Below, in pieces: positions 34,077 to 38,283 of a stretch of 40,428 bases of DNA. Where the stretch lies: positions 1 to 40,428 of the forward strand of contig JAJYDL010000004.1 of NCBI GenBank assembly GCA_021777495.1. The letters run 5' to 3'. Numbering within the stretch: position 1 is the stretch's first letter; every line of letters begins with the position of its first letter. This stretch comes from a bacterium (GTDB lineage Bacteria > Patescibacteriota > Minisyncoccia > UBA6257 > 2-01-FULL-56-20). The translations under genes and the position numbers were made by a program. The notes under the pieces are model-generated. The model was given only the letters and a program-made list of their open reading frames with translations. It had not been told where the DNA came from and ran no database searches.

Positions 34077-37000
34077 TTAACGATTTACCGATGAATGGAG
34101 AAGTGCAAGATACTGCTCAAGGAGCGAAATAAGCTGCTCCTGAAGGAGATGAACCTGCTCCTCGAGCGCCGCGTTGCCGCTGATGCTCGCGCCGAGGACC
34201 ACTCCCCCGCCTTCCTCGGGCGAGTTTCCCCCTCCGACGATCACGATGAAGGGGGGCTCATCGGAACGGTATGTTTCGGTAATCGTACATATCGCGGAAT
34301 TGCCCGGAGGAAGGCCGCTTTCGTCGTGGCAGTCCCCCGCAAATCCCTGAATATAATGGTCATGGGACTCGATCACATTCACCCCGAAGTTCGTGTCGGG
34401 TTCGAGCGTAACGGTGGTCCCCTCGGCGTTCCCGGGGAACGTCGATGAACTCGTCCCGCTTCCGAATATCTTGACCGTGAAGTCGGACGAGGTCGCGCTC
34501 CCTCCCGAACCGTTATCAACGATCACCTTGACCGTAAGCATGCTGACGGTCGGCGCCGCAACGGAGAATGAGACGGTATACGTCTGGACGGAAGAACCGT
34601 TCTGCGCCGTCACGGTCACGGTCGCGGTTCCCGTCGTGCTCGTAGCCTGCACGATATTCACGGTCGCATTCGGATCGGAGGATGTCGCCGTAACAACAGG
34701 CGTCATCGTCGTGTTGTAGGGCAGCACGTCCGTGTAGGATAGCGTCCCCGGATCGAACGAGGGTGAAATCGCTCCCGCGGACACGCCGAGCGCGCTCAAG
34801 GTATCGTCGCTGCCGAGCGCAACGGTCGTAAAGGACTGCATCGCTCCGGGATGCCACGCACCGTTCACGTATGACCACGCCACGTAATGATACGTGGTGC
34901 CGGGCTGTACGGCGGGCATAGTCCCGAGCGATTGTCCGTAGACGTAGGCGTTCGTCTCGAGTGACGAGAGCGCGGCGGAAAACGGGGTGTCCGACGCGAT
35001 TGCGCCGAAGTCGGGGGTCGAATAGACGCCCTTCGGTATCACGGGGCTTGCGGTGCTGAACGTCGACGTGGAAACCCAGAACGAATGTCCGGCGGCATCG
35101 TAATCGCCGTTCATCGCATTCAAGGTGGCATCGGTCCGGCCTATCCCCGTCGCCGCATTGGTCGTCACGAAGACAGGGGCCTGGCACGCATACACGTTGA
35201 CCGAAAGGCTTCCCGAATTATCACCGCACCACGAGGGATCGGGTGCCGGGGAGGAAGACGAGGAATTCCCGTCAAACACCATAAGGCTCAATGGCTGGCC
35301 CGTGCCCGTATACAGATAAGAATACCGATGACTCGGCTGGTATGCTCCCCAATCGACGAACGAACCGCCAACCCGGAGCTGGAACTCCCCATACCCGAGC
35401 TGCGCCGATCCAATATGGTATCCCTGCATGTACGTGCTCCAATTATCCACGCTTGCATATGCCGTATCGGCAACATTGATGCCGCCGTTCTGCCAGGTTC
35501 CCGAAGACACAAGAAGGTACGTCTGCCCGTCGGCAAGCGTAGTTGAACCCACTGTCGGAACATAATCCTTCGAATTGACCGCATCCGTTTCCAGGAACAC
35601 CTGCTTCGTTCCCGCCGGGCATGCCGCGATCGCCGGCGGCGGAACGGTGTTGAGCGTCACGGCCCACACGGAGCTCCAGGGGCTCATATTGCCCGCGGAA
35701 TCGATGGCGCGCACCTGCCAATACCATGTCCCGTCGGGAGCGCCGGACGAAAGGAGCGACGTCGTGGAAAGCCTTCCCGAATCCCAAAGGCCGGTGGTGA
35801 GAACACCGTTCGTCTCCGCAGGATTCATGCTCGAATGGAACTCGTACGACAGTGAGCCCGGTATGGGGCTCGTCGTGGGATTCCATCGGAACGTGAAGAC
35901 GTTCGTCGGAGTGATGTCCCCGTTCACTGGCCATGCAAGCACAGGCGCGGGAATGATCACGGCCTCATGGCTCACGACGAAAGGCATTGATGCGGTCGTA
36001 ATGTTCCCCGCAACGTCGGTCGTACCCGCGCGCAACGTATACGTACCGTCGGAGTACGCGGAAACGTTCAGCGTACAGTCATAGGTATAGCTCGGAATCC
36101 CCTGAAGGCTCGGATTCCCCGATCCGCAGGACCCCAGAAGGGTGCCGGTCGCATTGTACACATGAACGAAGACGTTCGCGATGCCGGTCTGCCCGTCGCT
36201 CGCGGTCACCGAAACGGAAAGCGTGGAGCTTACCGTCGTGGTCGCCGTCGGCGCGACAAAGACGAGCGTCGGAGGCGTCATGTCGCAGTAGGAGTTCGTG
36301 CACCATCCTGAATACTTCACCGCGCCGATGACCGGCGACCCGGTCCCGCTTGCGTTCGTAACGGGGATGCTCCCGTCGCCGGAAACGGTATCCGCGGGTC
36401 CGGTGGAAGCTCCCCACCAGTTCCCGGAAGCGTTCACATTCGCGGCAGTGATCACCGTCGAAGAATTCTGCACGCCGGCAGTGCCTTCTCCAGAAAAATT
36501 ATTGCCGGAAATATTCACCGTGGCGGAAGAGGTGAATGCGCCGCCGTCATCGCCGAGATACACGCCCCGCAGATTGCCGGAAAGATCGTTGCCGTTGATC
36601 GTGAAGGTTCCCGAATTGGGCGCATCGGGCGTGCCATAGGCATCATTGCCGTGAATGCTCACCCCGCTGCTCCCTCCCCCGGTGATGACGTTGTCCGTAA
36701 CAGAAGCGGTACCCGAAACATCGCCCCAGAAAAAGAGCGCGGAACCGCTTATGCCGGTTGCATGGTTATCGGATATCACGATGCCGTCCGTGATGCCCGA
36801 AAGCGCCACGAAGCTGCTTCCGTTCGCATTCCCGTTGTCCATATTCCCCGAAACGGCGACATTTGAGGAATGGCTTCCCGTGCAGGAGAAATTGATATCC
36901 GCACCGCCGTTGTTCGAGGCGTCCATGAAGACGTTATGCACCACCTGGGTGCCGCTGCACCCTCCGGTCATGCCGTCCGATTTGATCTGCATCGGCTCCG

Positions 37001-38017
37001 AATTCGGGGCCGGCGCAGTAAAGAGGTTCCCCTCAATGAGCAGGTCCCCCGCATGATCCGTAGGCATGCCCACGCTCGAATACCCGTTGAAGATATTGTT
37101 TTCGATGGCCACGCCGGAAAGTATGGCGGTGGAAGAAACGATATTCATCTGGACGCCCGGATTGGTGAAGGTGAAACCGTTCACCGTGACGCCGTTCGCC
37201 GAAACGTTCATGGCGTCCACGACCGATTCATCGCCGGAGCGCGGGACGAAGCTCTCGCTCGCCCCGGGAACGCCGGCCTGAATACCGTTCAACGCAAGGG
37301 GTTTGGCGATCGATACCGTTTCGGGATAGGTACCCGCCGCAACATCGATCGTATCGCCCGGCACCGCGGCATCCACCGCCTCCTGGATCGTGGAGTACCC
37401 CGTATTCGTTCTCATATTCACCGCAGGACCGATATCTCCGGAGTCGCCGCCCGAAAGCGGATCGGCGTCCGTCCACGTGCCGTCATGCGGCGTCACATAG
37501 GTGAGCGAATAGGTATTGGTATAGCTCGAACCGCTGCTCGTAGCCATTGCAGGGAATACGTTATTGACCCACCACGAGAATCCCGCCGTGGCACTGTCGG
37601 GCAAAGTCACCGACTTCGGCGACGAAGTGCTGTAATCCGGGGAAAGCGCGAAGGTTCCCGGAATGGTGTAATTCTCCCCTCCGGTGAACGTACCCGTAAT
37701 GCCCGCCGCGAGCGGCGTACCTTTTTCCGGAGAAATAAGCCCCGCGGTAACAAACGTTCCGTCCGCGGTGCTGGCATTCGCACAATAAGTCACGCCATCG
37801 GTACCAAGCCACACGTTCACCTTTTCCGTGAACGCATCTATCGCCCAACTCCCGATGACCCCCGAATCGGGATCGTTCGTGATGCGCTGGGTGATGGTCA
37901 CGAACGGAGTGCCGACCGTGGCGCAAGGCGCCGGCGATGGGGCAAGCGCCGCATGGACGATCCCGTGCATCCCCGCAAAGAAAACAAAAACAAAACCGGC
38001 AAAAGCGATTTTTTCAT
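34077..38017 (-). CDS. Giant secreted surface protein: beta-helix, Ig-like, cadherin-like and prealbumin-like domains; probable frameshift at the start
   Basis: The open frame encodes ~1,350 aa. In order: signal peptide (KIAFAGFVFVFFAGMHGIVHA), a ~200-aa N-terminal region, a right-handed beta-helix of NosD type (STIQEAVDAAVPGDTIDVAAGTY … GVTVNGFTF, many GN/SGN turns), Ig-like domains (TPPTLVFVAPTATTTV), FN3-like parts (WYWQVRAIDSAGNMSPW), a cadherin-like sandwich (LSALGVSAGAISPSFDPGTLSY), a prealbumin-like domain (~1199-1288) and a C-terminal Leu-rich coiled coil. The frame has only a TTG at 38132, 42 codons before the signal peptide. TAAAAT ends 6 nt before ATG 38017, which is followed by A6; one more A would give MKKIAFAG… in the main frame. 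So the true start is probably 38017, one base out of frame here. Likely an adhesin. Confidence 0.8.
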
Positions 38018-38023
38018 TGCGAT

Positions 38024-38029
38024 ATTTTA
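38024..38029 (-). promoter_or_regulatory. -10 box of the giant surface-protein gene
   Basis: TAAAAT, 6 nt before ATG 38017. Confidence 0.5.
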
Positions 38030-38257
38030 TTATTTCTTGGCTATCCTTGTTTGTTGGATATCTGGCAGACGGGTTACGGCCTTGTCCCGTCTCACTGGCC
38101 GATAGTCCCACGCGATCACATGCAAAGATCAATATTTCACAATACTATTCCTGACCCGTCCATCATAGAAGCGTGCCTCAAAGAAAGTCAATGGTAAAAA
38201 GCGCCGATTTATGCAGAATTTATGCACACGATATGCACCGGCAAGGATATACGCAAC

Positions 38258-38283
38258 ACAAAAGCCCCTTCCGGGGCTTTTGT
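38258..38283 (-). terminator. Terminator after the 406-aa surface-protein gene
   Basis: ACAAAAGCCCC-GGAA/TTCC-GGGGCTTTTGT inverted repeat with a T-rich flank. The rest of 38018-38312 shows only the upstream promoter region of the giant gene and no other gene. Confidence 0.8.

Follow-up and report, generated by a model that had tools for sequence, protein, structure and literature searches.

An adenine run one base shorter than in the nearest relative leaves the start codon of a giant secreted protein out of frame in a patescibacterial genome

The behavior of homopolymeric runs in bacterial genes depends on their length. In the meningococcus, tracts of at least 8 bases are predominantly variable, and the weak candidates are mostly A/T tracts (PMC5084427). 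Bacterial RNA polymerase is reported to bypass indels only in runs of 7 or more T, or of still more A (PMC6260861), and insertion rates climb exponentially with run length (PMC5574713). A single-base frameshift or consensus error in a short homopolymer is, for its part, a kind of event already known. Here, we describe a short A-run that directly follows the start codon of a gene for a very large secreted protein, and we compare it with each of these situations.

The window, by which we mean the whole analyzed stretch of 40,428 nucleotides, is contig C6 of a 700-kb genome (G000) that consists of 40 contigs and is 75.6% complete. On its minus strand, an ATG (38017-38015) is followed by six A (38014-38009) and then by TCG. 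As it stands, the frame of this ATG reads MKKSLLPVL… (MKKSLLPVLFLFSLRGC…) and reaches a stop after 39 residues. The main frame is -1 relative to ATG 38017 and open for ~1,300 codons; it runs from 38132 to 34077 (1,351 codons when counted from a TTG) and reads EKIAFAGFVFVFFAGMHGIVHA (…NEKIAFAGFVFVFFAGMHGIVHAALAP…) at the site of the ATG. The features of the locus are collected in Table 1.

Table 1. Coordinates of features at and around the start of the giant-protein gene, numbered along the window
Feature	Position	Strand	Basis
A6 run directly 3' of the ATG; A7 at the aligned place in G004	38009..38014	-	sequence and alignment
ATG start codon; aligned ATG kept in G004, used by G002 and G003	38015..38017	-	
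Next in-frame ATG; a start there would lose the hydrophobic core of the signal peptide	37968..37970	-	
Stretch from TTG 38132 to the ATG; most likely a noncoding 5' untranslated leader (stops and frame-breaking indels in G004)	38018..38132	-	
Promoter-like TTGACT-N18-TATGAT, also in G004	38162..38191	-	
Inverted repeat CAAAAGCCCCGGAAGGGGCTTTTG in the gap between upstream gene and promoter; one change in the G004 copy; the upstream gene probably terminates here	38259..38282	-	by eye
Main frame, secreted protein of ~1,310 aa	34077..38014	-	
Main-frame signal peptide region, KIAFAGFVFVFFAGMHGIVHA/A; G004 has nearly the same one	37949..38014	-	judged by eye
Upstream gene, secreted protein of 406 aa	38313..39533	-	

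Six of the eight genomes available for the genus, the window's own counted, have a match. The nearest of them, G004, shares 83% DNA identity over ~629 kb of aligned segments and is syntenic over the whole contig; its promoter, leader, ATG, and signal peptide all align with those of the window, and the signal peptide DNA is nearly the same. The G004 gene starts with ATGAAAAAAATCGCTTTAGTC, which contains seven A, and in frame, as ATGAAAAAAATCGCT, it reads MKKIALVGFVFVFFAGMHGIVHA. The orthologs in G002 and G003 each begin at an ATG just 5' of the same conserved domain, the former with MKKSLLIGSGVFLVLGFSLAAAAHA (MKKSLLIG…; A6, in frame) and the latter with MKKITLAGLIFAFSLLGINTMAHA (MKKITLAG…; run AAAAAG). 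The A-run after the ATG is not kept among these relatives (A7 in G004, A6 in frame with a different continuation in G002, AAAAAG in G003), and the out-of-frame arrangement occurs in none of the three, all of which are in frame from the ATG. The ancestral run was probably A7, as judged from G004, the sole relative that can be aligned over the whole leader. The original prediction, that exactly six A follow ATG 38017 and put the giant protein out of frame, is borne out by the sequence; its choice of this ATG as the start agrees with G004, G002, and G003, which start at the same ATG, and the MKKIA… signal peptide that it expected from one extra A has its counterpart in G004, with A7 and MKKIALVGFVFVFFAG….

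The giant protein comprises a signal peptide, a conserved N-terminal domain, a right-handed beta-helix-like region, an Ig-like region, and a C-terminal Leu/Gln-rich segment. The beta-helix-like region (residues 249 to 578 of the 1,351-aa reading) matches a NosD-family NCBIfam profile at an E value of 4e-9, far under the curated cutoff; the protein gave nothing above the cutoff against Pfam and, by sequence, no match to solved structures. The N-terminal domain, ~164 residues after the signal peptide (37458-37949, minus strand) and without a Pfam name, is nearly confined to the genus, being present in four genus genomes (the window's own included), with one weak match among 38 family genomes. 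The Leu/Gln-rich end follows VLGA/VLGE in the giant protein and its orthologs (L011, L013, and L014), e.g., LLEQYLALL (the segment is 34077-34240, minus strand, in the window), and another protein encoded in this genome (1,216 aa; C2:914-4561) has a similar stretch at its end; this segment is possibly a shared cell surface or oligomerization tail. The giant protein and the 406-aa product of the upstream gene have a common C-terminal domain, with 36% identity over 171 residues, which suggests a small cluster of related surface proteins. A terminator scan reported none at the inverted repeat between the two genes, which we called a terminator by eye; Rfam and tRNA scans gave no matches, and an exact search of viral contigs with the signal peptide DNA likewise gave none.

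The frame break at this start proved to be isolated when the genome was compared with G004. Gene models were hexamer scored; models based on the longest ORF were dropped, having yielded many false frameshift candidates from antisense ORFs, and a conserved-ATG test was adopted in place of a scan of windows around predicted starts, which was dominated by indels 5' of true starts. Of the 457 gene pairs whose aligned ATG is conserved, 8 have a broken frame, and in 7 of these 8, another conserved in-frame ATG lies just past the indel (judged by eye), such that the indel precedes the true start. The giant-protein gene is the only one of the about 457 left without a start, with its frame broken and no conserved ATG just downstream. 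The reverse comparison (460 pairs) flagged 12, which show the same pattern or are overlapping false gene models, and among 573 G004 genes with an ortholog in the window's genome, internal frameshifts were limited to two weak candidates, both low-identity N-terminal pieces. The 527,617 aligned coding bases, a count that the focal A6 site falls outside of, its gene model having begun at ATG 37970, contain one single-base change in runs of at least 5, a T-run 5' of a true start. Within these aligned bases (with 419 runs of at least 6 in predicted genes), none of the other coding sequences showed a homopolymer altered in length by one base. Because the only such run change lies 5' of a true start, homopolymers are not an overall weakness of the assembly, and a general homopolymer error is ruled out by the lack of any other such change inside a gene. 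As in a sporadic frameshift or consensus error, the change at ATG 38017 stands alone, in a gene that is otherwise intact and under selection.

As a pattern, an ATG followed by A6 is not unusual in this genome; it is the out-of-frame position of ATG 38017 that stands out. The 700 kb contain 20 sites at which an ATG is followed by at least six A, compared with 3 for a reversed control pattern, and about two thirds of the 20 are plausible MKK starts of long frames. No frame difference was detected at the other ATG-A6/A7 gene starts that can be aligned with an ortholog. As a separate observation on gene starts in the window's genome and G004, a Shine-Dalgarno-like 4-mer precedes only ~15% of the genes that start with ATG, the upstream regions are A-rich, and several genes have TATAAT-like boxes within ~10 to 20 bases of the start codon, as though transcripts often lacked a leader.

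Selection on the gene was gauged from changes polarized against G002 and G003. The window branch carries 57 synonymous and 28 nonsynonymous changes and the G004 branch 69 and 34, and the pairwise dN/dS between the two is 0.146. Since the ratios on the two branches are alike, selection has not been relaxed, and the protein of the window still evolves as a functional one, or did so until very recently. Equal selection on both branches, together with the lack of any further frameshift in 1,300 codons, rules out an old pseudogene; the ratios fit a recent deletion, a consensus error, or a reversible state.

Several readings would let the gene be expressed as it stands. Translation might begin upstream in the main frame, at TTG 38132, at a GTG in the same stretch, or at a rare ATA or ATT, with the extra residues forming part of the protein. 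The main frame is indeed open back to 38132, but the aligned stretch of G004 has stops and frame-breaking indels even though the promoter and ATG are conserved, G002 and G003 begin at the ATG with normal signal peptides, and a polar extension of 38 to 39 residues ahead of a signal peptide is unlikely in itself; we find an upstream start barely credible. Because the stops and the indels not divisible by three lie between TTG and ATG in G004, that stretch is leader rather than coding sequence, and the same features, with nonconservation, rule out the TTG start and its extension. The earlier doubt about this TTG, which is conserved with its extension in none of the relatives compared, therefore holds, although the extension had been put at 42 residues. 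Alternatively, the gene might be expressed from A6 if RNA polymerase slips during transcription (A6 to A7) or if the ribosome slips by -1 on AAA AAA within the first codons. A -1 shift past the second AAA would land in the main frame, and selection on the downstream frame is unchanged; six A in the ATG frame, however, are not known to form a canonical slippery heptamer, and the relatives need no shift. The run also falls under the length reported for bacterial RNA polymerase (PMC6260861). Slippage at A6/A7, which had been raised in the original prediction, is not supported at a run this short and not conserved, and we regard either form of it as highly improbable.

The remaining alternative is that the A-run is a phase-variable contingency tract, in which reversible slipped-strand mispairing adds or removes one A and so switches the surface protein between an on state (A7) and an off state (A6). 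The two states would correspond to G004 and the window, the run adjoins the ATG of a gene for a large secreted protein, and the intact downstream selection is what a reversible off state would give. Set against this, the tract has only 6 to 7 bases, below the guide of ~8 (PMC5084427), the run is not retained among relatives (AAAAAG in G003, A6 in frame in G002), and other alignable A6/A7 gene starts hold their frame. The phase-variable homopolymer suggested at the outset is not supported on these three counts, and we consider phase variation very unlikely here; there is correspondingly little chance that A6/A7 reversibly switches the secretion of this giant surface protein, with the Parcubacteria-type organism caught here in the off state.

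The reading we prefer, with a probability of roughly 0.86, is that of an ordinary MKK signal-peptide start from which one A has been lost, recently and in a nonprogrammed way, either from the cells that were sampled or from the consensus sequence. On this view, a sigma-70-like promoter precedes the gene for the large secreted protein, whose MKK-type signal peptide would begin at ATG 38017, and a consensus A-run one base shorter than that of G004 would put the annotated start out of frame. The missing A could have been deleted by replication slippage in the population sampled, a cause absent from the original prediction, or could be an indel error of metagenome assembly, which that prediction had named; we hold the two to be about equally probable, and recency, cause, and effect on the protein are what we infer from the comparisons above. 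If the deletion is real, the full protein would no longer be secreted, and there would be at most low-level expression, either by leaky recoding or by initiation at ATG 37970, which would leave out the signal core. A mixture of A6 and A7 could be hidden behind the consensus.

The main consequence is for annotation: as in the relatives, the gene starts at ATG 38017, and an automatic caller that settled on the TTG would be in error. Were a mixture of A6 and A7 to be real, the locus would become a candidate phase-variable one among the Patescibacteria, in which surface proteins probably mediate contact with the host. A true switch would be an instance of phase variation within the Candidate Phyla Radiation; a limited literature search found no report of this, and the search for phase variation, homopolymers, and Patescibacteria together likewise found nothing.

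Among known systems, the contingency loci of Neisseria meningitidis (PMC5084427) share with this locus a surface protein, a start-proximal homopolymer, and on and off frames one base apart, but the run here has only 6 to 7 bases, is not conserved across relatives, and is known from consensus sequences. The slippage-rescued A-tract frameshifts of Citrobacter rodentium tssM (PMC4256274) and of Blochmannia (PMC3017870) have in common with it a frameshifted gene with an A-run; set beside them, the A6 run is below the length at which bacterial RNA polymerase is reported to slip (PMC6260861). The closest likeness is to the sporadic short-homopolymer frameshift, whether by mutation or by consensus error, with which the locus shares an isolated one-base difference in an A-run and a gene that is intact downstream and in a relative, and from which it differs in no feature tested.
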